From: a virus
Reading direction: 5' to 3' (one strand)
DNA: 25,674 nucleotides
Virus record (IMG/VR): IMGVR_UViG_3300027969_000393
Span: 1-25,674 of that record
The translations under genes were made by a program, and so were the position numbers. The notes beneath the pieces are model-generated. The model saw only the letters and a program-made list of their open reading frames with translations. It was not told the DNA's origin and searched no databases. How positions within the stretch are numbered: position 1 is the stretch's first letter; each line of letters begins with the position of its first letter. Positions 7,792 to 25,674 of the stretch are shown here, in pieces.

Positions 7792-7810
7792 TTTTTAATC
7801 AAGTTGTCAA
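7782..7810 (-). promoter_or_regulatory. Sigma70-type promoter of the exonuclease gene
   Basis: On the minus strand a perfect -35 TTGACA (7805-7810) is followed by exactly 17 bases and a -10 TAATAT (7782-7787) preceded by TG. The ATG begins seven bases after the -10, so the predicted start site is at or one base before the start codon. The TGA inside TTGACA is also the stop codon of the upstream gene. The same layout recurs at 24381-24416. Confidence 0.7.
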
Positions 7811-8175
7811 GCCTGAGCGGCTAATTGTTGGGGAGCCGCAGATGCTGCTATTTGATCCACTTGGTCTTGACTGGTCTGACCCTGTTTGACTGGGGTTTGA
7901 GTATCTTTGTCAGTGCCTGGCACATTTAGTTCGATGCCGTCGGCGTTGAAATTCTTTACCAAACTTTGAACAATTGGGCTGGAATCATAGATGCTTTTAA
8001 AAGTTTCATAGTCGGCACCCATTTCGAATCCGCTGCGATCTGCAATCTGCTGTAGGCTCTTCCAATTTAACTTGGCGGCTTGTTTTTTAGAAGCTGACCT
8101 TCCTACAAAGTTTTTAAGTATGATCACAAACTTGTCGAGATCAACATCAGTGTCTGCGAATTCAAAAAATCTCAT
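7807..8175 (-). CDS. Probable virion protein, possible capsid-interior protein
   Basis: 122 residues. It begins MRFFEFADTDVDLDKFVIIL; the middle is Lys-rich and helical (GRSASKKQAAKLNWKSLQQ), and the last 35 residues are a Gln/Ala/Ser-rich low-complexity tail (VKQGQTSQDQVDQIAASAAP). There is no catalytic motif or membrane helix. The first six residues fit the MRxx[ED][LFI] pattern shared by several neighbours and reminiscent of T4 internal-protein targeting peptides. It is translationally coupled to the upstream gene by an ATGA overlap and ends at the exonuclease promoter. The family is not recognised. Confidence 0.7.
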   Translation of the reverse strand: MRFFEFADTDVDLDKFVIILKNFVGRSASKKQAAKLNWKSLQQIADRSGFEMGADYETFKSIYDSSPIVQSLVKNFNADGIELNVPGTDKDTQTPVKQGQTSQDQVDQIAASAAPQQLAAQA

Positions 8176-8600
8176 TTTATCTGTGCCAGTTGTTGTTGTA
8201 GCTGTTGCAGTTCTTGTTGCTTGGCTTTGATTTGATCCTGCACTTCTTTTTTAGCAGCAGCCACCTGTTGAGCTTGTGCGGCCGGATCTACTTCACCGCC
8301 TAGGCCTCCGGCCTGAGCTGCTTGCCCGACCGCTTTGACTCCCTGTCCTACTGCCTTGGCACCTTGTGATGCTACATTGCTCACAGTTTTTGCACCTTGT
8401 GATGCCACATTCCCTAACGCTTTTGCACCCTGTGAAACCGCGTTGCCGACACCTTTGGCAAGAGCAGTACCACCTCTCATTGCGGCACCACCTAATGCAG
8501 CAGCGCCTCGTGCTACTCCGCCTGCTACTGCGCCCAACACCGGAAGAATTTCGTCTAACTGTTGTTGTTCTTTAGCAGAAGTAATTTCACTGAGTCGCAT
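8172..8600 (-). CDS. Gly/Ala-rich repeat protein with C-terminal coiled coil, probable virion component
   Basis: 142 residues in three parts. The short N-terminal segment MRLSEITSAKEQQQLDE fits a capsid-targeting-like peptide, with a possible QLDE cleavage site. Residues about 20-100 are Gly/Ala-rich with repeats of the form NVASQGAK (two exact copies plus NAVSQGAK). Residues about 108-142 are a charged, Gln-rich coiled coil (KEVQDQIKAKQQELQQLQQQ). The Gly-zipper-like middle could insert into or disturb membranes, or form flexible packing inside the head. It overlaps the upstream gene by one base (TAATG) and the downstream gene by ATGA, so the three genes are co-translated. No family is recognised. 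Confidence 0.72.
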   Translation of the reverse strand: MRLSEITSAKEQQQLDEILPVLGAVAGGVARGAAALGGAAMRGGTALAKGVGNAVSQGAKALGNVASQGAKTVSNVASQGAKAVGQGVKAVGQAAQAGGLGGEVDPAAQAQQVAAAKKEVQDQIKAKQQELQQLQQQLAQIK

Positions 8601-10357
8601 TAGCCTGCCAACACTTTGAGTAGGCTGCTGCTGCGGTTGATGCTTTCGCGCTGCTCACGACCTGCATCACCTAGTCCACCTGCTGCTGGTTCAGCTGCGG
8701 CAAACTCATCTTCGCCACCCATGTCGCCTATGTCGCCGTCCATGTTCATTGCGTCTGGCTCTGCTGGTCCCATTTCATCACCACCCATTGCAGCTGGATC
8801 ACTACCTAGCATTTCTGCACCTTGTTCTTCGCCGGTTAGTTGGCGAACACCAGTGGCCATTGTTTCACGTGTGGATTTTAAATTTTCCAGTGCTTGTTGG
8901 ATCGCAGGAGCCACTGAGCTAATAAATGCTTTGGCTTGTTCTTGTCCCATTTCATCACGGATTGAATCACCTAACTGTAGCAGTGTATCATTCTCCATGC
9001 TTGATAATTCTTCAATCCAACGGCTGACTCTGTCAACCATGGTCTTTGCTGTAACGATAGCGGAAGCCTGTTGTACTTCGCCTTCTTGTAATCTTGTCAT
9101 AATATCTCCTGTATTGACTGATTCTGTATTAACTGATTCTTTCATATTGGCTTCAATCCATTGCATAACGTCATATAGATCGTTGACCAATTGATTTGGT
9201 CTAACTGGATCGCCTTGACCAAGTTCGGCCATTTTAGATTGTTTTCTAATATCTGCTAAAAGATTGATCGCATCTCTAGCATTATTAATATATGCTTCGT
9301 TGGTATTCATATCTTCCTTTTGATTAATGCTTTCAGTGGGGTTCTCGCCAGTAATAGAAACGGTCCATTTCTTGCCTGTGGACTCGCTCTTTTTAGCTGC
9401 CCAATCTTTGAGTTGGTAATAGTGCTTTCTTTCGGCTGAGTCGTCAGCATACTGGCCACGACCTTTGAATACTTTCCACTGCTTGCCGTTGATACTAACA
9501 GCAAAGTTGTTTGGTGGTTCTGTGTTGCCTTCATCCCAATCTTCTGGATCTCTTTCTCGTTCCATTGTAACATCTTCGCCTACATCGTGTTCATGTCTTT
9601 GTAGCCACTTGTACTCGCTGATAAAGTCGCTAGGAAAGTCTTCATCGTAGCTGAAATAATATCGAGCAGCTTTTGCGCCATCTCGTTGTTTCATTATTGA
9701 AAAACCAGCATTTAAAATGTCATCTTCTGAATCTAGGTCTGGGTTAGATTTATATAATTCTTGTGCCATACTCATTCTAGATGATTCGTCTTCAGTTTCT
9801 ATGCTTTCGTAGTCTTCGTCGCTGCCAAAGCCTGCTGAGGCTAGTGCGTAATTGTCGTCAGTTTCACCACCTTCATCATCATAAGTGCCGCCATGGAATC
9901 TGTCTGCTAGTTCTTCAGCATAACTTTCAATATCATCTTCCGGAACTTCTCCGTCTAGAAAACGTAGGGCTTTATCAAATACAACTTTGTCATCGCCGCT
10001 GTCATCATCCATAGGAGCATATTCACTGTTCATCCATTGATTAAACAATTCGTCTGGATCTGTCTCTGGGCCTTCTCGAACATCAGTGTCTACTATGTGC
10101 TCTTGACGATCCATTAGTTCTGCAACAATAGCATCGTGCATGAACTGTGCCTGCGTTAGGGTTTCGTTTTCGATAGTTTCATTGAATCCGCTGTCTTGGC
10201 GGGCTGTATGTATTTGGGTGCGTAGTTTGTTACGTGCATCCTCTAGCTTGGGAGTATCAAAACTCTCTAGGTCTAGCTTTGTTCCAAATGTCTTAGCCAA
10301 CGACTCGTTGAGTCTTTTTGAAGATCTATTGTTTTTAAAAAGGTCGGTTGTTCTCAT
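8600..10357 (-). CDS. Large acidic phage structural protein (capsid-interior candidate)
   Basis: 585 residues. The N-terminus MRTTDLFKNNRSSKRLNESLAK contains LNE at 16-18, which matches the T4 prohead protease consensus (Leu/Ile-x-Glu). Residues about 80-280 are extremely acidic (runs such as DEDYESIETEDESS). At about 280-345 there is a distinct module with INGKQWKVFKGRGQYADD and KKWTVSITG. The C-terminal part is helical (SSMENDTLLQLGDSIRDEMG), then a Met/Gly/Asp-rich linker and a tail ending ESINRSSSLLKVLAG. The acidic, low-complexity composition suits a scaffold, core or internal head protein. A late promoter motif lies about 25 bases upstream. It is the first gene of a coupled trio. The function remains inferred. 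Confidence 0.72.
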   Translation of the reverse strand: MRTTDLFKNNRSSKRLNESLAKTFGTKLDLESFDTPKLEDARNKLRTQIHTARQDSGFNETIENETLTQAQFMHDAIVAELMDRQEHIVDTDVREGPETDPDELFNQWMNSEYAPMDDDSGDDKVVFDKALRFLDGEVPEDDIESYAEELADRFHGGTYDDEGGETDDNYALASAGFGSDEDYESIETEDESSRMSMAQELYKSNPDLDSEDDILNAGFSIMKQRDGAKAARYYFSYDEDFPSDFISEYKWLQRHEHDVGEDVTMERERDPEDWDEGNTEPPNNFAVSINGKQWKVFKGRGQYADDSAERKHYYQLKDWAAKKSESTGKKWTVSITGENPTESINQKEDMNTNEAYINNARDAINLLADIRKQSKMAELGQGDPVRPNQLVNDLYDVMQWIEANMKESVNTESVNTGDIMTRLQEGEVQQASAIVTAKTMVDRVSRWIEELSSMENDTLLQLGDSIRDEMGQEQAKAFISSVAPAIQQALENLKSTRETMATGVRQLTGEEQGAEMLGSDPAAMGGDEMGPAEPDAMNMDGDIGDMGGEDEFAAAEPAAGGLGDAGREQRESINRSSSLLKVLAG

Positions 10358-10377
10358 TTTATGGGATCCAGATTGAT

Positions 10378-10391
10378 GTAGTATTTATTCA
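10378..10391 (-). promoter_or_regulatory. T4-type late promoter motif
   Basis: The minus strand reads TGAATAAATACTAC, core TAAATA at 10382-10387, just after the stop of the previous gene and about 25 bases before the ATG at 10357. It is one of the best matches to the window-wide consensus. Confidence 0.6.
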
Positions 10392-10393
10392 AT

Positions 10394-10813
10394 TCACAAC
10401 AAACGTTCTGCTTGATTTTTAGCAGTAACAGTACGATCTCGGCTTTCACAATATCGAGCCCACAGCACGTCTGCACGATCGTAGTCCTGTGTATGTATGG
10501 CTTTTTGATGCTGAGACCTCAGCATCTGGCTGTCAACGAACCAACGTCCGTATTCTTGATCAGCTTTATACAACACATCTACTGATAAATGACTGTGTCT
10601 CAAAGCCAGGATATTGGCCATTTTGATAGCCACAGAGTTTAAGTGTATTTCTGCATAGATCAACTGTGTATTTCTGTAAAGAAATTTGAGATTATCTTCA
10701 TTGGTTATTAGTACGTCGCCCACTAGGATACCATCCGGAGTTTTTACTGGAATGATATTTTTAGATAGTTCTCGGCGAACTATCTGTTCTAGTCTACGGC
10801 TAATTTGTGTCAT
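10394..10813 (-). CDS. Phage protein of unknown function
   Basis: 139 residues, predicted largely helical. It begins MTQISRRLEQIVRRELSKN, has a short beta-like stretch with IPVKTPDGILVGDVLITNED, and ends in a basic helical region (RYCESRDRTVTAKNQAERLL). There is no membrane helix, Cys cluster or recognisable catalytic motif. Its ATG sits right at the U-tract of a terminator hairpin (10815-10836), so there is no free leader and no normal Shine-Dalgarno site; expression probably depends on read-through. It may be a virion component like its neighbours, but I do not recognise it. Confidence 0.65.
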   Translation of the reverse strand: MTQISRRLEQIVRRELSKNIIPVKTPDGILVGDVLITNEDNLKFLYRNTQLIYAEIHLNSVAIKMANILALRHSHLSVDVLYKADQEYGRWFVDSQMLRSQHQKAIHTQDYDRADVLWARYCESRDRTVTAKNQAERLL

Positions 10814-12327: not shown

Positions 12328-13425
12328 TTAATCAGCTCTAAATGGGGTCCAACGATCACGCGGTACTAGTTTTGTACCTGCTGCAACATAGCCTTCACCG
12401 CCGGGTTTGCCTTTGGTGTTTTGTTCTATTTCACCGCTCGCACCATCAAGTTCGCGAATTACTTCGTCTTTGGCCGCCATGATTTCACGCACCAGCTCAA
12501 ACAGCAGATCCATTACTCCGGGGTGGGCATCACTGTGGGCTTTTATCTTTGCTGCTTTTACTGGAGTCTTTTGTTCAAACGCTAGGAAAGCATCAGTGTT
12601 GATATTGTCTAGTTGTTTTGCTTTTGATTGATTGTTAACAAATGTGTAGATTTCACCTTGCAAGTAACCCATACCTGCAACTGGCGCTAACAGATTGTTA
12701 ATTGCCTGTTGATTCTTAGCCAAGGCTTCAATCTTGGTAAGGTTATCTGCACCTACTGCTGGGCGATGGCTTACACTGGTTAGTCCAAATATTGCTAATT
12801 CCGGATTGCTGCCAAACTGTTCGGGATCAGTAAAGTCCTCTCCGCTCTTGTCTCCAAAATAGCCAAAGAACTTGTGGGCGGCTACAGCTACCTTTGCTTT
12901 GATCAATTTCTGATAATACGGACTTCCAACTTTAACACCGTAGGTAGTTTGATTAGGAGTAAAACTTATGCGGCCATCAGCACCTGTGTAGGGTTTGCCT
13001 GGATGGAATAGTATGTCTCCGTAAACATACCCACGGAAGTCTGCGGGGGTAGCTGCTTCAAAAATGGGCCACAGTGCTGCCATATCATTGGCAAACTTGG
13101 GCCGCCAATCTTCACCTTTACCGCGACTCATAATAAATTGTTTGAGTTCTTCTGGGCTAGAGCTCTTGCCTTCTTCACGTCCCCAGTTATTCTTGCCCAC
13201 CATACGGAATGTACCATCGTCCTCACGTCCCCAATAAACTGTGGGATTCCCATCCCACTTGATAGTGATGCTGGTTTCGGGACTGGCTAGGTCTTTTAGG
13301 ATCTTAATGGCCTTGACTGCACCGTTGGTTTCTGTGAATACCAGATCTTCTAGGTGGTTGAACTCTCTGCCAACTTTCTTAGCAGGAGGTGCTTGATCTT
13401 CTAATAACAGTTCCCAGAATCTCAT
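12328..13425 (-). CDS. KxDG-motif (ligase/capping-type) nucleotidyltransferase-like protein
   Basis: 365 residues from ATG 13425 (MRFWELLLEDQ). A longer start at 13455 is open, but 13425 gives an ATGA overlap with the upstream gene and a neighbour-like N-terminus. Residues 55-59 read IKWDG, matching motif I (KxDG) of covalent nucleotidyltransferases, with Lys56 as candidate nucleotidyl acceptor. GYVYGDILF (132-140) resembles motif III with Asp for Glu. EGYV (344-347) followed by Lys352 (TKLV) resembles motifs IV and V. Family members include ATP-dependent DNA and RNA ligases and mRNA-capping enzymes. No OB-fold domain is obvious. I believe homologues in T4-like phages are annotated only as unknown-function proteins. 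Coupling to a polymerase-beta-type nucleotidyltransferase suggests a joint role on nucleic acid. Confidence 0.65.
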   Translation of the reverse strand: MRFWELLLEDQAPPAKKVGREFNHLEDLVFTETNGAVKAIKILKDLASPETSITIKWDGNPTVYWGREDDGTFRMVGKNNWGREEGKSSSPEELKQFIMSRGKGEDWRPKFANDMAALWPIFEAATPADFRGYVYGDILFHPGKPYTGADGRISFTPNQTTYGVKVGSPYYQKLIKAKVAVAAHKFFGYFGDKSGEDFTDPEQFGSNPELAIFGLTSVSHRPAVGADNLTKIEALAKNQQAINNLLAPVAGMGYLQGEIYTFVNNQSKAKQLDNINTDAFLAFEQKTPVKAAKIKAHSDAHPGVMDLLFELVREIMAAKDEVIRELDGASGEIEQNTKGKPGGEGYVAAGTKLVPRDRWTPFRAD

Positions 13426-14237
13426 TTTACAATTTCTATGAGTTGGCGCATCCAACCTATAGTACCTGGTTGGAAGCTTTCTATTTGATTGGCCTTGGGC
13501 AACTCTATGCCTTGACGACCCAGCGTTTCGCGGGCACCTGCAACTAGTTCTTCATAGTTAGGTAGTTTCTTAATGTAGTTTAGAATAGCATCTACTGATC
13601 TAATATCTTTAACTGTGGCTGTTTGTCCTAGCAGTTCTTTGGCTATCTGATTCCAATCGTTACCGTTAGGTAACAGTTCATCTGTTTGCGGATTTAATAT
13701 TCCGTGTTTTGGACTGTACTTCATACCCTTGGCACGAGCAATTGAACTTAATACAATGTGTCTGTGTTCACCACGATACACACCCTGTCCACCAATCATA
13801 CTGCCTTGTTGGAATGCAGGATTCGCACTGAACATAAAGTCTGCTTGTACAAATCCATTAGCTGGATCACCTTTAATAGGTACCTTCCAATGTACGTTGT
13901 CTCCGCTGAGTTTGATGTTTTCTTTGCCGAACTGCGATATGAGTTTGGCAGCAAATTCTTTTTTGTCTACTTCGTTGGCATCCACGCTGAGGTCTAGATC
14001 ACCCGAACTGTTTTTTTCAAATGTGCCATCTGGATCTTCTTTGCGTCCAGTAGTACCTAACCATTTTACAGGTTTCTTGTCGTCGAGATGTTTCTCTTTG
14101 GTAAAGTCCAGTCCAGTGATCTTTTCGATGTAGTCCACTGTGCTTTCTACATCTGCGGTGGCAATACGCTGTGTTAAGGGTTGCTTGTCTGCACCCTTGA
14201 ACACATTACCGCCTTCTAGTAGGTTACTCTGATTCAT
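13422..14237 (-). CDS. Polymerase-beta-fold nucleotidyltransferase-like protein
   Basis: 271 residues. The N-terminus is MNQSNLLEGGNVFKG. The core shows the superfamily pattern: KWLGTTGRK at 58-66 (the G-S/T-x-G helix-capping loop), SSGDLDLSVD at 77-86 with the two metal-binding aspartates Asp80 and Asp82, and a third carboxylate Asp133 in VQADFMF on the following strand. The C-terminal half is helical (KELLGQTATVKDIRSVDAIL). Such enzymes add nucleotides to RNA, DNA, protein or small molecules; the substrate here is unknown. The gene overlaps the upstream small gene by 14 bases and the KxDG protein by ATGA, so the products are made together. The LLEGG near the N-terminus may be a prohead-protease site. 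Confidence 0.68.
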   Translation of the reverse strand: MNQSNLLEGGNVFKGADKQPLTQRIATADVESTVDYIEKITGLDFTKEKHLDDKKPVKWLGTTGRKEDPDGTFEKNSSGDLDLSVDANEVDKKEFAAKLISQFGKENIKLSGDNVHWKVPIKGDPANGFVQADFMFSANPAFQQGSMIGGQGVYRGEHRHIVLSSIARAKGMKYSPKHGILNPQTDELLPNGNDWNQIAKELLGQTATVKDIRSVDAILNYIKKLPNYEELVAGARETLGRQGIELPKANQIESFQPGTIGWMRQLIEIVK

Positions 14238-14502
14238 TTAACGGTCTCTTGGTTCTTTTAGATTCAGCGATCTTGCGTATGCCCCGTGTGAATTTGGCAG
14301 GATCTTGCCCACGTATGGCATTTAACAGCCTACGTTCTAGTTCATCCGCTTGTTCTGCTGTATAGTGTTTTTTCAACGTTTCCAGAAGATTGATAGCTGA
14401 GTTGATAATATTGGTGGCACGACTTTCAAACAGTGCATCCTTGTTACGGATTTCTGCTAGTTCATTTAATTCCTGCAGTATCGATCTTGTGTGTAGTTTC
14501 AT
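14224..14502 (-). CDS. Small helical protein upstream of the nucleotidyltransferase pair
   Basis: 92 residues, highly charged and helical: MKLHTRSILQELNELAEIRN, then SRATNIINSAINLLETLKKH and EQADELERRLLNAIRG, ending KRTKRPLNESE. No membrane segment or catalytic site is seen. LQE, LAE and LNE all match the Leu-x-Glu rule of T4 prohead protease cleavage. A ribosome binding site (AAGG) and late promoter motif precede it. It overlaps the nucleotidyltransferase gene by 14 bases, so it may be a partner or packaging adaptor of that enzyme. The function is not known to me. Confidence 0.72.
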   Translation of the reverse strand: MKLHTRSILQELNELAEIRNKDALFESRATNIINSAINLLETLKKHYTAEQADELERRLLNAIRGQDPAKFTRGIRKIAESKRTKRPLNESE

Positions 14503-14561: not shown

Positions 14562-17500
14562 TCAAGCCTGTGCTTCGCCCCAACGTAGAATAATGTTTGT
14601 AGGTGTAGCCGAACCCGCTACTTTATAGACGTTTATAGCTAGCACGTCTGGGCCGTTGGGGAATGTGCCACGACCTCCAATTGCAGTACTAGTGAGCTCT
14701 TTTAACGCACTTAGCTCTAGTACTTCAGTGTTGCCGGGATTAGCAATAAACGAAAATACCTGTTCACCTGGTAGTGCATACAGCGCACCAAATTGCCATG
14801 TAATACTAGCAGCAGCATTAATCGTGGTATTAGCTGATTGACTAAACACCACTCTATACACTGTAGTGCCTCCGTAGGTTCTTGATTCTACTGCTGTGAT
14901 GCTGGTTCCAGCTGCGAACTGTGTGTTAATGGTGGCTAGTTTTGTACTGACCCCAGCACCGCTGGCTAACCAAGAACCTGATGTAAAGAACAAATAATTT
15001 TTATTCACGTATGAGGCAGCAGACAGAGCAGCTGTGATAGTTACTACTACATCGTTACCAGAACCTGTAGAGGATGTAAGATTAGCATTGCCACTCATCA
15101 CAATCCTAGTATATAATGTTGCACCGATGGTAATGTAACTAGGAGTAATACTGGTAATGGTTTGGCCGCCACTGATAAATGTCTGCAGAGTATAAGTCAA
15201 CCCTGTTGGAGTACCTGCAGTGGTTGATACTCCGCCGCCACCTGAGGTAGCACTTAGAGTAAAAGTAGTAGAGCCGTTGGTGGCCACAATAAAATACTGG
15301 GCGCCAGTTGCGTATCCGCTGATAGTACCTGTACCCCCTAGTGTTCCAGTGATAGTTATTTTTTCACCGATAAACAAAGTGGTAGCTGTGCAGCTAAATT
15401 GTCCGGCAGTGCCTGTTATCACCACAGATGCCAATGTAGTACCTGTGCCTGCGATGCTCAGTACATCGTTGACCGCTATTCCAGATCCTGTAGCAGTGCT
15501 GTTGGGAATTAAAAAATCACTTCTTGAAGCCGATATAGCTGACCCATAGGCAGCTGTGACTGCGCTGGTACCGGTCACTGCAATGTTGTTGCCTGTGCCT
15601 GCTGTGCTGGTAGCTGTGCCGTTGGTACTCATAATTATTCTAGCATAAGCCACACTGCCTATGGTCCAATAATTAGGAGTTATAGAAGCTATAGCTTGTC
15701 CATCAGTTAGATATGTGCTTGCCGATACCACATCAGTGGCCACAGTGGTAGAAGCTGCATATTGACTCTGTGTGACCAAGAAATCATTTCTGCTGGAAGA
15801 TATAGCTGTATTGAATCGTGCAGCAACACTGCTGGTCACTGTGACAGTGACGTTTTGTGCGCCGTTGCTGGCAGCTAGGGTGCTGTTGGCAGTGGGCACT
15901 GCTGTCATTATCACCCTGGCATAGACCACGCTGGCTATGGTGATATAACTTGGAGTTATGCTGGATATAGCTTGTCCACCTAGAATGAATGTGGTAGCGG
16001 ATAATACATCTGGATTACCAATAGTTGTGGTCAACGCAGCATATGATGTTTGTGTGATCAAGAAATCCAGTCTACCAGTTGACAGTGCTCGTCCGTATGT
16101 GCCGTTGATCACTATGGACACATTGTTGCCTGCGCCTGCTGTGCTGTTCACTGTCATGTTTTGATTGAACACTATGCGTGTATATGCACCTGCGATGAAA
16201 GCTCGGGTCACGCTGGCTATGGTGGTATTGGCAGCAATGCCTGTGCCTGACACTGCATCACCAACAACCAACGGTGTGGTTAGAGCATCATACTGCGTGT
16301 TGGTGATAAGTATGTCGTTTCTCGTAGTATCTGTAGCTCTAATGTAGGTGTTGTTACCATATGGCTGTCCTGCATTAAATCCCAACGCTGTGACTGTCTG
16401 GCCAAAGCTGGCAGCTGTGATTGTTTGTGTGGTAGCACTGAAACTAACAGCAGTAAGACTGTTTGTAACCGGTGTAAATCCAGGTGCAGTTAGTGTGGTA
16501 CTTAGTGCTCCTGCCACTGTTGAAGTAGTAGTAGAAACATTTCCGCTCCATGTCACAGAACCTCCACTTGCTACCTGTGCAAAACTAGGCTGTCCACCAG
16601 CTGCTTGTGTGAGCAAACTTCCCCATGTGATGTTTGCTGGGTTAGTGGGATAGTTGATAGGATTTAACACTCCTTCAATAACAATGGCTCCTCCGCCGGC
16701 AACAGTATCACTGGTAATAGAAATACTTGACAACAACAACTGCGCACGATTCAGCAGATCTCGCTCTCCAAGGTCTCCGATCAGCGCATTACTCACACTG
16801 GGTGCTAGTCTAATCAAGAAAGCAGTGACTTTGTCAACTGATGCTGATAGACCAGTTGCAGCATAGTTAAAGATATAACCACGATCTGAATCAAACTGGC
16901 CGTCTATCATAAATGCTGAACCCCAATGGCTGATGATTGGAGTCACTGTGTTAGAGACCAATACCACACCACTGCGTATGACATGGCTGGCAGCTGTGCC
17001 TGCGCTGAAAGTTCTAGATGAGCCTGACACAAATTGATTCAGTGTGGTAGCTCTGGTGCAGCCAGTCAACGCTGAGCCGCTGTTGCCAGTAAAGCTGATC
17101 AACTCATTGTCTATATACACAGTTCCTGAATTTGGAAACCAAAACAAGTCATCTGCACTCATAGGTATCGTGGTCTGGTTGCTGGTCATTGCTGCTGATA
17201 ATTTGCCTTTATATCCCTCGTTGATTACTTCGTATCTCACCGGTTGGTTACCTGTGCGCATATAAGCTTCAAAGTTCACATTACTGTTACGGAATCTATG
17301 CACAAATGTATAGTTGCCGTCTGAGCCTCGCATCATAAAATCAATAAATCCTGCACCGTACCATGTGTGCTGTATACCGATCATCTGCATCTTGGTCACA
17401 TCTATGTTATATCCGCTGGGTCCAGACCCATTCATGGTATCTAGATTCCAATCACTTTGAGGCACTAGAGTGTCCACAACTTTGGTTATCTTTACACTGC

Positions 17501-20500
17501 TGACATTGCTGACACCGCGGAAATCTGGAGTCACGGTCATTGATGTGTTTGACGCTACATTGGAAACCACGTGAGTCATACCACGGATAACAACTCTGTC
17601 GCCTGATGCTAATTGTTCTGTGAATCGAGTGTTGGTGCCTGTTATTGTGTTGGCATTTGCATTGATGCTGATGGTTCCTGCAATTTGGAATGTGCTGCTT
17701 CTTCTGCACACAGCCATTCTTATGCCATCATATTGGAAAAACATGCCGTTCTGATCATCAAATATACCTGCTCGTACTGTGGCACCGTGCCAATTCTTTA
17801 CACTCATTAAACAAGGACTACCTAATATTGGTGATGCGCTGCCTAGTATCTGTGTAGCCACAAAACTCAATTGTCTTTCATTGGTTATGGTACTAACTGT
17901 GTAAGTGCCGTTGTATCCAGAAGTAACAACACCCGTGATTGTGATAACTCCACCAACTTGGCATCCGTGATCTGTGTCGTCACTGATTATAGTAATGATG
18001 CTGCCTATTGCTGTGCCTGTGGCGGTGACTGAACGTATATCATAACTGGGAGCAAACAGTGCACCAGTATTATATGTAACACCCTTGCCTGATTGATAAC
18101 GAATGTATTTTTTACTCATACGTATGGCAGTAGAGCCGTGTGCTGGACCGGCTGTGCCTAATTGCACACCGCCGTCAAAGGGTCTGTGTATAAAGAATGA
18201 ATCTGGTCTGCCATAGACCTGTCCAACTAAGGTATTGGCTATGGTACCAGCGGCTCTGGCCGTGTATCGTAAAGTGGTTGCTGTTGGCACACTTTCTACA
18301 AAGTAAGCACCAGCGGCTAATTGAGCATTGGTACCAACACTTGTGATCTGTGTCGTTATGGTGTTTCCTGGTATAAACCCGTGAGCCGTGGCAAATGTAG
18401 CTTCTATAGTAGAGATAGCCGAGAATGTAAGCCCTGTATTGCCACTGGCTATTTGAGCAGTAGTTGGTTCACTGATAGTGAAAGCACTGATGAAATCTTT
18501 GGTAGGGGCTGTGACTGCTGTACCAGTGACTGTGGCAGATTGTATGGCGCCACCTGGAGTTACTGTGGCCACTGTGCATTGTGCCTGAGTGTGTAGAGTA
18601 GCTACGTCGAACTGTCCTGCTGACCCTCCGCCTTGCACCACTGTTATTGTGTTGCCGATAGCGTATCCTGATCCCGGATTATTAACTGTAACTGACAAAA
18701 TGCCGCCAGCACCGTCGTCAACAATGTTAACAGTGAGACCTGTGCCGCCACCGCCTGTAGTTGCCAACCCACTAGCAGTGGTATACCCCGAGCCTGCGGC
18801 GATTGTACCAGCAGTGCTAACACGGCCTGTGGCTCCTATGGTAATAACTTCGTTGGCTGTGTAGCCACTACCGCCTGCACTGATTGCAACAGCTGTGATA
18901 ATGCCAGCTGATGCAGTGGTGTTTATTGTAAGGCCTGTGCCTGAACCGCCACTGGTTGTGGCAACTCCAGCAGCAGTTGAATATCCTGTGCCTCCTACGG
19001 TGACTGCACCAAGAGTAGCAGCCACATCTAAAGGAGAAGCTGAAACCACGAGAACAGTGGCGTTGTTAGCAGGAGCAGCACCATCCATGCTGGTTCCCGG
19101 AATGGTCACTGTATTAGTGGCCACATATCCACTTCCCGGAGTGGTCACTGTGACACCGTAACCAGGACTTCTTGATATGCTGAACTGTGCTCCAGTGCCT
19201 GATCCAGTTGTGGCACTTTGTGTGAGTGCAGTATAGGTTTTAGTTGTACCTATGATTGCTGAAGTCAATGCTCCACTAAGAGTAACAGTGTTGCCAGTAA
19301 CGTCTGTTACGATCACTGCCTGACCGTCACCTCGATTAAACACTAGACCAGGACCAATTCCGGTGGTACTGGTAACATCTATAGTAGTTGCGCTGATCGC
19401 AGCGTTGGCACTCAGTGTGGTTGATGCTGCTATGCCGCCGGAACCAGTGACTGCTGTGATCTGTGTGCCAGTATTAACTCCTGTGCCGCTAAGAGGAGCT
19501 CCTATCTGTGGACTGCCTGAACTGAATCCAATTACTGCACTGCCGCTGGGCGTGATCAAACTAGTGGTTATGGTACCGGAACTACCTCCTGATACCACAG
19601 CTAGACTAGGTGACCCTACCGCAGCACCTGTATAGAATCCACCTTTTCTCAACTGTGTATATGTGCTAGCCAACACTTCACCGTTGGTGGTTCCTACTTT
19701 AGATTTGGCATAAAAAGATATCTGCGTTGATGACCCTACCACAGCAACTAAAAAACTCCCTTCTGCACGACTGAACCCCGAAACACTGTTACTTAGGGCC
19801 TTGATGGTTATAGGATCATTCACAGCTAGTCCGTGAGCAGCTGTGGTAGTCACTGTGATAAGACTGGCACCCACATCGCCAGTTCCTGAACTGGCATCTG
19901 TAGTCACATTAGTCACCGGAATATCACTGCCCGGTATTTCATAGATACTTGGATAGTTGCGCATCAATCCAATGGCCTGCCACTTGGTAGGTTGAAGTCC
20001 GTACTCGAAGTCAGCATCCAACATGCTTTGCGGGATCCCTACTTTTTGTCTTTCCATGGCATCAGTGGCTATGGAGGTCATACGCACTGCCTGTTCTTTG
20101 GCTTCAACAAAAATCTGTATGTTGTCAGTGACCATCATAGCACTGGTATCTATGTCAAGAGTTATGCTAGTGATCTTATCTACACCATATAATGCTCCTG
20201 GGAAACTGGTATCATAATCTTCTGAATAGGTGATTTCCGCAGCCAAGCTGTCATCAGCAAAATTATACATGATGATGTTGCGTGAACTGTTGGTAATCAA
20301 TAGTAGATCTTTGAGTTTATAAAAGCCGGGTACTTTGATGTAGCCGCGATTGCTGATCTTGGTTGGCAATCTTGATACCCCAAATTCGATTACATCTAAC
20401 ACGATGTTGCTGAGTTCTTTTAATCTAGTCTGTGCCGGTTCTTCCGCAGTATAGGATAGATCACGAACTTGACTGACTAAGATCTGTTTCGGAGTAAATG

Positions 20501-21410
20501 CTATATTTGCCCAAATAAAGTTGTCTATGAGATCTCTGATAAATGTATGTGCATATATTTCAGGTTGACGATCTCCGTCTACCTGTGCAACACCGTTTTC
20601 CCAATATTTTTCTGCGTTGAAGTAGGTCTGTCTATTGCCACCGTGTTTTAAATCGCTGAGGTAACCTTCTAAAATGTAACTAACATCTCGTCTGCATTTT
20701 TCTGCATTATAGGTATAGTTCACATAGGGTGAAATACTGTTATCAACGTTGTATTGAATGTAAGCAATGGTTTCTTCTTGTACGAATCGCTTGTTGGCTT
20801 CAAGTAGATAAACAGCATTAGGTAATAGGCTGCCGCCTTGACTGCTAGGTGCTACTGGCGCTGGCAATGTGCTGAGTCCTGTGTCGATGATATTGATAAC
20901 GATATTGGCCAATGTAAGAAATGCATTATACGCACCTGCTTCTGCGGCTGCGCCTAACAACACTTGAGGTTCACCAACTAGATTTAACACAGATGAATCA
21001 ACTTCATTGGTTAAGATTAAATCGTTGATCTGTGCTCTAATTGTAGTTTGTACATCAACTTCAACATCTCCCGACACTACCTGCAACACTCCACCGATAT
21101 AATATCTTGATGCATTGGCATATGTTAAAGAATTTCCGCCGTAGGTAAGATCGTAGATATACCCGTCAATCACATACCCAATATCTCTTTTACATTTTAA
21201 TTCTCTTGTAGCATCGTAAACATACCCATACCAAATGCTGCCAGCATTACCAGTGTTAGCAGCTATTTGATTTTTGATATATTGGTTAGCTTCTTGTATT
21301 ACATAATTTTTGTTTGCAGTAATCAACGCTACTGCATTTGGATACTGGTTGTAGGCCGGGGGCACCACTCCAGGAAAAAATTTATAATTGCTTAACTGTT
21401 TCTTTGCCAT
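14562..21410 (-). CDS. Giant modular virion structural protein (tail-fibre-like), 2282 residues
   Basis: The longest gene in the window. Residues about 24-185 and 197-352 are two copies of one domain, each with a CxRDxxYxxxGYxxDLxxGGN motif (residues 73-93 and 239-259). After a connector come many Thr/Ser/Gly-rich beta segments, including repeats with GSGY (18590-19200), and then five tandem units of about 85-90 residues near the C-terminus (about 14785-16370). The protein ends with a small domain containing FPNGPDVLAINVYKVAG. This modular beta-rich design suits an extended fibre or baseplate-attached structural protein. There is an AAGGA ribosome binding site nine bases before the ATG, directly after the repeat-bearing fibre gene. 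No enzymatic motif is seen. Its exact position in the virion is not inferable from sequence alone. Confidence 0.85.
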   Translation of the reverse strand: MAKKQLSNYKFFPGVVPPAYNQYPNAVALITANKNYVIQEANQYIKNQIAANTGNAGSIWYGYVYDATRELKCKRDIGYVIDGYIYDLTYGGNSLTYANASRYYIGGVLQVVSGDVEVDVQTTIRAQINDLILTNEVDSSVLNLVGEPQVLLGAAAEAGAYNAFLTLANIVINIIDTGLSTLPAPVAPSSQGGSLLPNAVYLLEANKRFVQEETIAYIQYNVDNSISPYVNYTYNAEKCRRDVSYILEGYLSDLKHGGNRQTYFNAEKYWENGVAQVDGDRQPEIYAHTFIRDLIDNFIWANIAFTPKQILVSQVRDLSYTAEEPAQTRLKELSNIVLDVIEFGVSRLPTKISNRGYIKVPGFYKLKDLLLITNSSRNIIMYNFADDSLAAEITYSEDYDTSFPGALYGVDKITSITLDIDTSAMMVTDNIQIFVEAKEQAVRMTSIATDAMERQKVGIPQSMLDADFEYGLQPTKWQAIGLMRNYPSIYEIPGSDIPVTNVTTDASSGTGDVGASLITVTTTAAHGLAVNDPITIKALSNSVSGFSRAEGSFLVAVVGSSTQISFYAKSKVGTTNGEVLASTYTQLRKGGFYTGAAVGSPSLAVVSGGSSGTITTSLITPSGSAVIGFSSGSPQIGAPLSGTGVNTGTQITAVTGSGGIAASTTLSANAAISATTIDVTSTTGIGPGLVFNRGDGQAVIVTDVTGNTVTLSGALTSAIIGTTKTYTALTQSATTGSGTGAQFSISRSPGYGVTVTTPGSGYVATNTVTIPGTSMDGAAPANNATVLVVSASPLDVAATLGAVTVGGTGYSTAAGVATTSGGSGTGLTINTTASAGIITAVAISAGGSGYTANEVITIGATGRVSTAGTIAAGSGYTTASGLATTGGGGTGLTVNIVDDGAGGILSVTVNNPGSGYAIGNTITVVQGGGSAGQFDVATLHTQAQCTVATVTPGGAIQSATVTGTAVTAPTKDFISAFTISEPTTAQIASGNTGLTFSAISTIEATFATAHGFIPGNTITTQITSVGTNAQLAAGAYFVESVPTATTLRYTARAAGTIANTLVGQVYGRPDSFFIHRPFDGGVQLGTAGPAHGSTAIRMSKKYIRYQSGKGVTYNTGALFAPSYDIRSVTATGTAIGSIITIISDDTDHGCQVGGVITITGVVTSGYNGTYTVSTITNERQLSFVATQILGSASPILGSPCLMSVKNWHGATVRAGIFDDQNGMFFQYDGIRMAVCRRSSTFQIAGTISINANANTITGTNTRFTEQLASGDRVVIRGMTHVVSNVASNTSMTVTPDFRGVSNVSSVKITKVVDTLVPQSDWNLDTMNGSGPSGYNIDVTKMQMIGIQHTWYGAGFIDFMMRGSDGNYTFVHRFRNSNVNFEAYMRTGNQPVRYEVINEGYKGKLSAAMTSNQTTIPMSADDLFWFPNSGTVYIDNELISFTGNSGSALTGCTRATTLNQFVSGSSRTFSAGTAASHVIRSGVVLVSNTVTPIISHWGSAFMIDGQFDSDRGYIFNYAATGLSASVDKVTAFLIRLAPSVSNALIGDLGERDLLNRAQLLLSSISITSDTVAGGGAIVIEGVLNPINYPTNPANITWGSLLTQAAGGQPSFAQVASGGSVTWSGNVSTTTSTVAGALSTTLTAPGFTPVTNSLTAVSFSATTQTITAASFGQTVTALGFNAGQPYGNNTYIRATDTTRNDILITNTQYDALTTPLVVGDAVSGTGIAANTTIASVTRAFIAGAYTRIVFNQNMTVNSTAGAGNNVSIVINGTYGRALSTGRLDFLITQTSYAALTTTIGNPDVLSATTFILGGQAISSITPSYITIASVVYARVIMTAVPTANSTLAASNGAQNVTVTVTSSVAARFNTAISSSRNDFLVTQSQYAASTTVATDVVSASTYLTDGQAIASITPNYWTIGSVAYARIIMSTNGTATSTAGTGNNIAVTGTSAVTAAYGSAISASRSDFLIPNSTATGSGIAVNDVLSIAGTGTTLASVVITGTAGQFSCTATTLFIGEKITITGTLGGTGTISGYATGAQYFIVATNGSTTFTLSATSGGGGVSTTAGTPTGLTYTLQTFISGGQTITSITPSYITIGATLYTRIVMSGNANLTSSTGSGNDVVVTITAALSAASYVNKNYLFFTSGSWLASGAGVSTKLATINTQFAAGTSITAVESRTYGGTTVYRVVFSQSANTTINAAASITWQFGALYALPGEQVFSFIANPGNTEVLELSALKELTSTAIGGRGTFPNGPDVLAINVYKVAGSATPTNIILRWGEAQA
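14785..16370 (-). repeat. Five tandem beta-repeat units within the giant structural protein
   Basis: Units begin near 16368, 16106, 15835, 15568 and 15028 on the minus strand. Each contains a variant of RxDFLIT...YAAL, a segment like GQxIxSITPSYxTI, xYxRIxM and GxGNxVxVT. The first four starts are about 262-271 bases apart; the fourth unit is about twice as long because a foreign-looking segment (about 15210-15505) is inserted in it. The copies have diverged at the nucleotide level. Confidence 0.75.
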
Positions 21411-23633: not shown

Positions 23634-23665
23634 AAAAGAAAAGCACCTTCGGGTGCTTTTTCTTT
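23634..23665. terminator. Bidirectional rho-independent terminator with UUCG loop
   Basis: AAGCACC-TTCG-GGTGCTT, extended by A-rich and T-rich flanks that also pair (AAAAGAA with TTTCTTT). It lies between the convergent 90-residue gene (plus) and desaturase gene (minus), and it has a run of A on one side and T on the other, so it can stop transcription from both directions. Confidence 0.92.
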
Positions 23666-24365
23666 ATCTAACTGTGGCTAACTTAAAGAACCGCAGTATT
23701 GAAATATACATCCAACCTAGATCAAACTCATACCACTTCTGGCTGAACTTGGCATTGGCGCCGTCAGCATGGTGATTGTTGTGTAGTTCTTCCCCGCCAA
23801 TCCATACAGCCCAAGGGATGATGTTACGGCTGGTGTCTTTGGTATCAGTGTTGCGATATCCCCACCAATGGCTAAGCCCGTTGACTACTCCAGCAGCCCA
23901 GAACGGAATCCATATCATTTGAATACCCCACACTACAAGTCCCCACGGTCCAAAGAGCAAGAAGTCTATGACCAGCATTAAAAGAATACCTGAGCGACTG
24001 TGTGCAGAGTAAAGGTTGCGTTCGATCCAATCATTAGGGCAGTCCTTGCTCAAGGAGTCAACCATAGCTGTGTCTTTGCTGGCACTATGATAAAGCAATG
24101 CTCCGCCGAACAGCACACGCCAAATGCCGTAGATCTGTGGGCTATGCGGATCGCCCTCTTGGTCCGAACGTTGATGATGTTTGCGATGTATGGCCACCCA
24201 TTGGCGAGTAACCATTCCTGTGGTCAGCCAAAGCCAGGCTCGCATAAAGTGGTTAACCGCTGGGTGAAATTGGACAGCTCTATGTGTTTGGCTTCTGTGC
24301 AAATACAGGGTAACACAGGCTATAGTGATTTGTACCATCACTAGGGTATAGATTATTATGTTCAT
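23664..24365 (-). CDS. Fatty acid desaturase (acyl-CoA/acyl-lipid delta-9 type)
   Basis: 233 residues. All three histidine boxes of membrane di-iron desaturases are present: HRSQTH (23-28), HRKHH (60-64) and HNNHH (195-199), with the extra His166 in NGLSHWWGYR. Hydrophobic segments at about 3-22, 41-60, 125-150 and 150-165 form the membrane core. It would introduce a double bond into host or phage-directed fatty acids, changing membrane fluidity. It is shorter than many bacterial enzymes (about 300 or more) but has every metal ligand, so it is probably active. It is isolated on the minus strand, convergent with the 90-residue gene and divergent from the HAD gene; a weak AAAG precedes the ATG. 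This is an auxiliary metabolic gene, probably acquired from a bacterium. Confidence 0.93.
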   Translation of the reverse strand: MNIIIYTLVMVQITIACVTLYLHRSQTHRAVQFHPAVNHFMRAWLWLTTGMVTRQWVAIHRKHHQRSDQEGDPHSPQIYGIWRVLFGGALLYHSASKDTAMVDSLSKDCPNDWIERNLYSAHSRSGILLMLVIDFLLFGPWGLVVWGIQMIWIPFWAAGVVNGLSHWWGYRNTDTKDTSRNIIPWAVWIGGEELHNNHHADGANAKFSQKWYEFDLGWMYISILRFFKLATVR

Positions 24366-24415: not shown

Positions 24416-25000
24416 ATGAAGCAAAAAATTATACTCACAGACGCAGACGGTGTTCTACTAGATTGGGAATGGGCATTCTCAGTTTGGATGCAAGAACGTG
24501 GTTATACCTTAACAGCTGACAATAAGAAAAGCTATTATCTACATCATCACTACAACGAGCTAGAAGAAAAAGATTCGAAGAAAGTCATCAAGACATTCAA
24601 TGAATCAGCAGCAATTGGATTTCTTCCTGCCTTACGTGACAGTGCTTACTATGTTAAAAGACTGCACGAGGAACACGGCTACCAATTCCGGGTTATTACA
24701 AGTCTAAGTCTAGATAAAAACGCACAGAAGCTTCGCGAAAAGAATCTACACAAACTGTTTGGCAATGCTATTGAGAATATAATCTGTTTGGACACAGGTG
24801 CAGACAAAGATTCAGCATTGGAACCATACCGTGATAGCGGCTTGTGGTGGATTGAAGACAAACCGGCTAATGCCGATGTTGGGTATTATTTAGGTTTGAA
24901 ATCAATTCTTATCGAGCACGGACACAACATGCATCATGAGTGTGCTTATCCTATAGTTAAGAACTGGAAAGAAATCTACGGTATTATTGTAGATCACTGA
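24416..25000 (+). CDS. HAD-superfamily hydrolase, possibly 5'(3')-deoxyribonucleotidase-like
   Basis: 194 residues. Motif I is DADGVLLDW, with nucleophile Asp9 and general acid Asp11. Motif II is the Thr/Ser of VITSLS. A Lys in DKDSALEPY fits motif III, and WWIEDKPANAD fits motif IV with an acidic pair (Glu-Asp). These are the residues expected of a HAD phosphatase. The helical cap between motifs I and II contains LHHHYNELEEKDSKK. Phage relatives often dephosphorylate nucleotides, which would fit a phage that degrades host DNA and encodes RNR, but the substrate is not determined. It has a perfect sigma70 promoter and a leaderless layout, so early expression is likely. Its 3' end overlaps the convergent amidotransferase-like gene by 17 bases. 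Confidence 0.85.
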   Translation: MKQKIILTDADGVLLDWEWAFSVWMQERGYTLTADNKKSYYLHHHYNELEEKDSKKVIKTFNESAAIGFLPALRDSAYYVKRLHEEHGYQFRVITSLSLDKNAQKLREKNLHKLFGNAIENIICLDTGADKDSALEPYRDSGLWWIEDKPANADVGYYLGLKSILIEHGHNMHHECAYPIVKNWKEIYGIIVDH

Positions 25001-25619
25001 CAAAGTCCAACAGCAACTCGTGATGTCGGCCACTGTGATAATGTGGCTTCATCCAACTGTGGTATTCCGAATACCAACTAGGTTGGCTTTCTGGGTGACA
25101 CCCTATTAGCCCTATGTTGTTTTGTATAATAGCCATTGGATCGCCGTTGGCATAAGTAGCTACAGTTTTAAATTTTGTAGTATCACCTACCAATGCACAC
25201 CCATCATAGAAGTACATGCGTTCCTGTTGCCCTTGCCAAGTAATGGGTAATGCTTTGGCATGCGGTCTACGTGTGTCTGTGCCGGGTCGAGTGATGTATT
25301 GCACAGCTTCTATGCCGTCTACAATATTGAAGTAGTCTTTAGCTGCCCAGTATGCGCCCATGCATATGCCTAGATACCTTCCGCCTCGACTAACAAAGTC
25401 TTTGACTCGATCGCCGTTGTGTGCCAGCAGGTGATCAAAACTATCAGCATCACCAATACCGCCTGGTACAGCTATCATATCAACATCGTCGAAGAAGTCA
25501 GCGTCAAGAGGCCAGCGTGTGAATATTTTAAAACTATGGTATGGTTGTAGTGCCTGGAGAATGCCGTTGCCGGACTCTACTGAGCATTTAGGCTGATGCA
25601 AGAACAATGCTATCTTCAT
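24984..25619 (-). CDS. Class I glutamine-amidotransferase-like protein (biotin-protein-ligase N-domain type)
   Basis: 211 residues from ATG 25619 (MKIALFLHQPKCSVESGNGI); the frame is open to the window edge, but this start begins at the first core strand. A Gly-rich loop AVPGGIGDADSFDHLL (50-65) precedes the nucleophile elbow GICMGAYWA with Cys86, and GCHPES supplies His175 and Glu177, so the triad is complete. RRPHAKA and MYFYDG resemble the BPL_N family seen at the N-terminus of eukaryotic biotin-protein ligases and as standalone bacterial and phage proteins. No synthetase or ligase domain is attached, so what it acts on is unknown. A TATAAA lies six bases before the ATG, but no convincing -35 is seen. 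Confidence 0.78.
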   Translation of the reverse strand: MKIALFLHQPKCSVESGNGILQALQPYHSFKIFTRWPLDADFFDDVDMIAVPGGIGDADSFDHLLAHNGDRVKDFVSRGGRYLGICMGAYWAAKDYFNIVDGIEAVQYITRPGTDTRRPHAKALPITWQGQQERMYFYDGCALVGDTTKFKTVATYANGDPMAIIQNNIGLIGCHPESQPSWYSEYHSWMKPHYHSGRHHELLLDFVSDLQ

Positions 25620-25674
25620 ACAGTCTTTATAAAAGTGCTCACTTAGAACGCCATTCCGGGGCACGACTCCCATA

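Follow-up and report, generated by a model that had tools for sequence, protein, structure and literature searches.

A polymerase-X-like protein and a predicted minimal ligase, both with capsid-targeting-like leaders, encoded as a coupled pair in a large lake-water phage

Two nucleotidyltransferase-like proteins in one gene string

The DNA analyzed here is the 25.7 kb IMG/VR virus record IMGVR_UViG_3300027969_000393, the whole of which is called the window below. It carries three genes, C, A and B, arranged as a tight minus-strand string. Gene C (14224..14502, minus strand), at the start of the operon, encodes a small virion protein of jumbo phages (92 amino acids, recognized by a PHROG match). 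Gene A (13422..14237, minus strand) encodes a polymerase-X-like nucleotidyltransferase of 271 amino acids, assigned from its open reading frame, a fold match and invariant catalytic residues, while gene B (12328..13425, minus strand) encodes a ligase-like covalent nucleotidyltransferase of the family DUF6267, assigned from Pfam, a motif alignment and a profile match. C and A overlap by 14 bases (14224-14237), and an ATGA stop/start overlap visible in the sequence (13422..13425, minus strand) couples A to B. Residues of B are counted from the ATG at 13425, which gives 365 amino acids; an upstream TTG start at 13455 would add 10 residues, giving 375. The reading frames, strands, coupling and overlap are all as described in an earlier note, which was made from this sequence alone and proposed A and B as an undescribed system.

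Protein A contains a nucleotide-binding loop, G61-T-T-G64 (14046..14057, minus strand), a motif S78-G-D80-L-D82 (13992..14006, minus strand) and a third catalytic aspartate, D133 (13839..13841, minus strand). Among 50 representative homologues sharing less than 70% identity, G61, G64, G79, D80, D82, Q131, D133 and M135 are invariant, and S78 is kept in 49. An AlphaFold2 model of A (predicted local distance difference test, pLDDT, of 78; disorder at residues 1-9) was compared with the PDB using Foldseek, and the top 50 matches were all family X polymerases (E 6e-4 to 1e-2, probability 0.84-1.0). The best of these has an E of 6e-4 and a probability of 1.0, and two have an E below 0.001; the structures matched include Thermus PolX, DNA polymerases mu, lambda and beta, and the PolX of African swine fever virus (ASFV). 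By its predicted structure, A is a nucleotidyltransferase-fold protein and specifically a polymerase-X-like one.

At the sequence level, neither Pfam nor PHROGs places A in a family, and no PolX model of Pfam matches it up to an E of 10; the sole PolX-type Pfam trace in the A family is PF14791 in the homologue of contig L328 (E 0.041, below the cut-off). Since the sequence models fall short of significance, A is labelled polymerase-X-like here and is not filed as PolX. No cellular relative of A was found among about 85,000 bacterial and archaeal species genomes at the sensitivity of that scan. When the PDB was searched by sequence, the profiles for A, for B and for the jumbo-phage ligases found chance-level matches only. 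The identification of A as RlaP was considered and rejected, PF10127 having no match in A nor anywhere in the A-bearing sequences G001-G004.

Protein B is a member of DUF6267 (PF19782; 57.7 bits against a cut-off of 27, E 1.7e-15), a family present in 127 phage records, mostly of marine cyanophages. Pfam assigns no function to DUF6267, and the open-access literature yielded no paper on it. B carries motif I, K56-W-D-G59 (13249..13260, minus strand), whose K, D and G are invariant in DUF6267 and in the ligases of jumbo phages; a motif III-like G136-D-I-L-F140 (13006..13020, minus strand), whose G136 and D137 do not vary among diverse DUF6267 proteins; motif IV, E344-G-Y-V347 (12385..12396, minus strand), with E344, G345 and V347 invariant; and the invariant motif V lysine, Lys352 (12370..12372, minus strand). 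When DUF6267 and the jumbo-phage ligases were aligned jointly, K56, D58, G59, K78, E344, G345, V347 and K352 proved invariant. A helical stretch precedes motif IV, and the protein ends 13 residues past Lys352. The motifs which the earlier note had picked out in A (GTTG, Asp80, Asp82, Asp133) and in B (Lys56, GDILF, EGYV, Lys352, in a numbering valid from the ATG start) are therefore present, and their key residues are invariant in homologues.

The DUF6267 profile matched that of the jumbo-phage KLDG ligases with a probability of 97.2 (E 3.8e-11); an unrelated control scored 1.7. In a viral structure library, the first match of B outside its own family was the 324-amino-acid “RNA ligase” of Agrobacterium phage Atu_ph07, and 324 amino acids is also the length of P0001, the product of the gene preceding the A homologue in that phage. 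We conclude that B is a minimal covalent nucleotidyltransferase, most likely a ligase, that lacks the customary C-terminal domain, and its ligase fold is proposed from these comparisons. Separately, DUF6267 is split over two frames in L192 (9778-10934), possibly by a frameshift or an intron, and likewise in S-PM2 (L210:5995-7774).

Genes A and B are linked and sometimes fused

The first two IMG/VR scans gave 148 loci, and later profile searches added relatives down to about 25% identity. In all 148 of these loci A adjoins B, and C, A and B stand together in 147; in the last one A is cut by the contig end, and C would fall outside. The ATGA spacing between A and B is the same in 130 of the 148. 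A ligase-type partner is fused to A, adjacent to it or 1-2 genes away in 40 of the 63 A clusters (80% identity), five other clusters having too little sequence to judge. The remaining 18, mainly from one distant branch, have room, yet no recognized ligase lies nearby.

A and B are fused as one open frame in 30 loci, with the junction ...GMQVITE-A-ARIEHPED... and a site of the [I]xE type in nearly all junction variants. The reverse order is found in L289 and L292, where a KVDG ligase followed by A makes up a single 894-amino-acid frame, and IIME/GG (the slash marks the predicted cut) again precedes A. All 13 of 13 contigs of the Atu_ph07 type have a KLDG ligase immediately upstream of A.

If A and B were unrelated neighbours in a block of structural genes, inherited together by chance, the 18 clusters without a recognized ligase and the occurrence of DUF6267 without A in cyanophages would be readily accounted for. 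Given the two different fusions in opposite orders, such a chance neighbourhood is very unlikely. These independent fusions contradict it, as do the conserved ATGA coupling and the repeated pairing of A with two diverged ligase families, and we find this explanation scarcely credible. The sequence evidence says that A and B would work as one unit, and the expectation that the pair recurs in other phages was borne out, including fusions in both orders.

Further genes accompany the pair in some relatives. In L328 (4337-5931) and in L329, two ATGA overlaps join three genes, which encode A, a KLDG ligase and a HIGH-type, cytidylyltransferase-like nucleotidyltransferase, and each of the three proteins starts with a T4-like leader (MLGVNFKTFYQQALLSE, MIPFKQYFKQVLLE and MKSFQQFFIE). 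A possible third partner is an unannotated, helical-looking family, D, which recurs behind or beside the pair (L148:8812-9600, L149:8824-9501, L203:3234-4100, and beside the A-B fusions of L269-L298).

Capsid-targeting-like leaders and virion annotations

Both proteins of the window begin with a short leader. That of A, MNQSNLLE (14214..14237, minus strand), ends in a putative prohead-protease site ahead of GGNVF, and that of B, MRFWELLLE (13399..13425, minus strand), is a putative capsid-targeting sequence comparable to those of the T4 internal proteins II and III (IPII and IPIII). In T4, ten residues suffice for packaging, and the protease gp21 cleaves after L/I-x-E (PMC9026906). The B orthologues start with MRAFEFLTE, MRFWELLLE and similar sequences, while IPII and IPIII start with MKTYQEFIAE. 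The leaders of A vary in length and sequence and end in [LIVM]xE/GG in 255 loci, which among them have 81 different leaders; the A homologues of jumbo phages start with M/GG, that is, exactly at the predicted cut point of the leader.

A tag pattern for such leaders was then compared between gene starts and internal methionines of two long related contigs, G001 and G002, and was found at 8 of 374 starts against 0 of 1820 internal positions in one contig, and at 5 of 297 against 2 of 1486 in the other. These counts were reached by none of 1000 shuffles in either contig. As controls, T4 returned exactly ipII and ipIII, and lambda returned none. Both of the tag-enriched contigs also encode a prohead protease of the S77 (gp21) family. 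A looser tag ([LI]xE within 12 residues) showed an enrichment of only about 2.5-3-fold, and no conclusion is drawn from it here.

Because both A and B carry leaders resembling the capsid-targeting sequences of T4, they may be virion cargo, not replication enzymes made late. This may explain why the pair is expressed late and next to virion genes, which had seemed odd in the earlier note. According to a rival explanation, the pair acts inside the cell late in infection, for example in DNA repair during packaging, and the leaders are not capsid-targeting signals. It would fit the cyanophage DUF6267 proteins and jumbo-phage A homologues, which are leaderless and lie in replication modules. The leader pattern, its enrichment, the T4 and lambda controls, the prohead protease in related contigs and the virion annotation of a distant A homologue all speak against it, and we consider it unlikely.

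The annotation in question comes from Pseudomonas phage PA5oct, whose gp253 is a homologue of A (E 4e-17) and is recorded as “structural protein, ESI-MS/MS” (electrospray ionization tandem mass spectrometry). Its gp259, a homologue of C, is annotated as a virion structural protein. The annotations of the PA5oct record are the only experimental hint of an A-type protein in virions.

Leaders of this kind were also noticed on other proteins. Between A and B, the contigs L195 (7156-8310), L196 and L206 encode a CCA-adding enzyme (PolyA_pol PF01743, E 2e-36) whose leader is MRAFEFLIED and which has the look of a tRNA-repair enzyme packaged in the head. A second polymerase-beta-like protein (GSSAYH...YGD[IV]DLQ...VQ[IV]D) with a capsid-type leader is encoded in L190 (8048-9175), L192 (8753-9775) and L316 (MKIKDIILEGGWDTT...); the L190 and L192 copies have no Pfam match, and the L190 copy has no match among PHROGs or phage records. 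An N-terminal cassette, MRAFEFL.E-WSKKYKSSINCSNPKGFSQKAHCAGRKK, fronts B in L041, L063, L101, L187 and others, and it also fronts unrelated proteins, including those of insert genes in L160 and L190, as if leader modules shuffle between cargo. Other capsid-tagged proteins are encoded at 136245-137137, 208489-210871 and 269523-270083 of G001 and at 9353-10445, 189187-190221 and 266556-267599 of G002. Several of the tagged proteins in these two contigs are very basic or alanine-rich, and some lie near the prohead protease gene; they are candidate injected or core proteins. Within the window, three consecutive genes (7807-8175, 8172-8600 and 8600-10357) start with MRFFEF, MRLSEI and MRTTDLF, which resemble the front half of a leader.

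Protein C matches PHROG 11854, “virion structural protein” (E 6e-17), and has homologues in 56 phage records, many of them annotated as virion or structural proteins. In the hairy enterobacterial jumbo phages CBB, RaK2 and 121Q, C is present while A and B are absent from that region; C alone is therefore no marker of the pair. Its inclusion in the enzyme system was considered and dropped, C being a wider virion protein. The neighbours of the three genes in the window are NrdB, NrdA, an exonuclease and virion-type genes. The same region of CBB and 121Q holds homologues of the NrdA, the exonuclease, a 585-amino-acid structural protein and C of the window; the RaK2 stretch examined matches the exonuclease, the 585-amino-acid protein and C, but not NrdA. 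Directly upstream of C, a 2282-amino-acid repetitive protein rich in serine, threonine and glycine (14562-21410) is probably a tail or surface adhesin. Two further genes are unusual cargo for a phage: a fatty-acid-desaturase-like protein (23664-24365; PF00487, E 1e-14) and a protein matching a biotin-protein-ligase N-terminal/glutamine-amidotransferase domain (24984-25673; PF09825, E 3e-10).

Proposed function and relation to known systems

On balance we favour, with slightly more than even confidence, a capsid-packaged and co-injected gap-filling and end-sealing unit of a large lake-water phage, made up of A and B. A, as a stripped-down enzyme of the polymerase X type, would add nucleotides to a 3' end or fill a short gap; B, as a minimal enzyme of the ATP-dependent ligase type, would be charged with AMP at Lys56 and then seal the join. 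In this phage lineage, both would be made with removable N-terminal capsid-targeting leaders, enter the prohead core, be trimmed after [L/I]xE by a T4-type prohead protease and be injected with the genome, so that repair would be available ahead of any phage gene expression. The cleavage, the packaging in this phage, the injection, the chemistry and the substrate are all predicted here from sequence and models. The suggestion in the earlier note that one protein prepares an end and the other seals it stays the best, though predicted, mechanism.

The preferred substrate would be incoming phage DNA with nicks, gaps or cut ends, and the main alternative would be broken tRNA. The preference for DNA rests on the resemblance of A to polymerase X and on the primase, helicase, polymerase and recombinase genes that its relatives adjoin. 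If the pair were instead a tRNA repair kit, A would restore lost tRNA nucleotides and B would reseal the strand, countering host anticodon nucleases early in infection. This is a serious rival on account of three lines of evidence. The partners of A in jumbo phages weakly match the Pfam RNA_ligase model (E 0.002 and 0.085, and 0.0004 in L328), the CCA-adding enzyme tagged with MRAFEFLIE lies between A and B in three contigs, and pairs of the polymerase-beta-like RlaP with an RNA ligase have been proposed to act in tRNA repair in jumbo phages (PMC7824862). Set against these are the polymerase X fold match of A, which is not RlaP, and the primase/helicase, polymerase and recombinase genes beside its relatives; we hold the tRNA explanation to be possible but rather unlikely.

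A or B might also nucleotidylate a virion or host protein. Polymerase-beta and KxDG folds can act on substrates other than nucleic acids, and T4 Alt, a virion cargo which ADP-ribosylates the host RNA polymerase after injection, offers a precedent. That a polymerase-X-like protein is paired, and in places fused, with a ligase-like one suits sequential end processing better, and no protein substrate is suggested; modification of proteins therefore appears improbable.

Several observations weigh against a packaged gap-filling and end-sealing unit. The cut-off of the Pfam PolX domain is reached by no protein of the A family. B has neither the oligonucleotide/oligosaccharide-binding (OB) domain nor the C-terminal domain usual in ligases, its model is mediocre (pLDDT 68) with best PDB matches that are mostly DNA or RNA ligases and each weak (E 0.2-1), and the profile match between DUF6267 and the KLDG ligases spans motifs IV-V only. 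Of the two nucleotidyltransferase folds proposed in the earlier note, that of A was recovered by Foldseek as PolX-like, and that of B found weak ligase matches. Beside the 18 A clusters lacking a recognized ligase stand the cyanophage DUF6267 proteins, with neither leader nor A neighbour. As for packaging, the tag pattern was devised after B and its neighbours had been seen, and the window itself encodes no prohead protease. In PA5oct, the gp253 annotated by mass spectrometry is a distant homologue without a T4-like leader, the ligase homologue gp256 is annotated as hypothetical with no virion flag, and an FtsH-like protein is also annotated as structural (PMC6892783), so the structural list of that phage may include contaminants.

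Among known families, B belongs to DUF6267 (cyanophage T4-GC 71) and shares its KxDG and EGYV...K layout, while the cyanophage members lie beside a cytidylyltransferase-like HIGH protein or form one polypeptide with it. It is the same HIGH domain as that encoded in L328, and L210 (6602-7774) shows it in a cyanophage. In its predicted palm-type fold and catalytic residues, A resembles the family X DNA polymerases, among them the minimal PolX of ASFV. It differs in having no significant sequence match and no detected helix-hairpin-helix (HhH) or 8-kDa domain, and a thumb is merely hinted at in the A family by PF14791 in L328. The giant algal virus PgV has a fusion of PolX with an NAD ligase (PMC5537341), which likewise brings a polymerase-beta core and a KxDG ligase together, also as a single polypeptide; its ligase is of the complete NAD-dependent LigA type, whereas B represents a minimal, phage-borne family with a capsid-type leader. 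RlaP and its RNA ligase in jumbo phages similarly place a polymerase-beta nucleotidyltransferase beside a KxDG ligase. A, in contrast, has no PF10127 match, and head packaging is no part of the RlaP proposal in the portion of that source consulted (PMC7824862). Injected T4 proteins serve as counter-defence (PMC12373910). With IPI-III and Alt, the pair shares leaders of about ten residues ending in L/I-x-E on unrelated cargo, and a prohead protease in related genomes; the known T4 cargo consists of restriction inhibitors and an ADP-ribosyltransferase, not of a polymerase-ligase pair. Mimivirus particles reportedly carry base-excision-repair enzymes.

The claim of an undescribed system holds in part. 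Each half falls into a known superfamily, and pairing a ligase with a polymerase-beta protein is a known idea through RlaP (PMC7824862); in the open-access literature, we found neither the A-B pair nor a function for DUF6267 described, nor any phage reported to package a polymerase-ligase kit.

More broadly, and with a little less than even confidence, a large T4-related phage family may pack into the head, and inject with its genome, a tagged repair kit, comprising a polymerase-X-like enzyme and a ligase, which would act before gene expression against damage from host defences. In some lineages the kit would be a self-separating polyprotein, and in others it would be joined by tagged CCA-adding, second nucleotidyltransferase or HIGH-type enzymes. 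These results provide the first concrete hypothesis for the function of DUF6267, and a fold is assigned to a second, unannotated phage family, that of A. If the leaders work as they look, the phage would bring the repair of incoming nucleic acid with it rather than making it after entry, as an injected counterpart of the T4 restriction inhibitors, and the leader would offer a direct sequence readout of the injected cargo of a phage.
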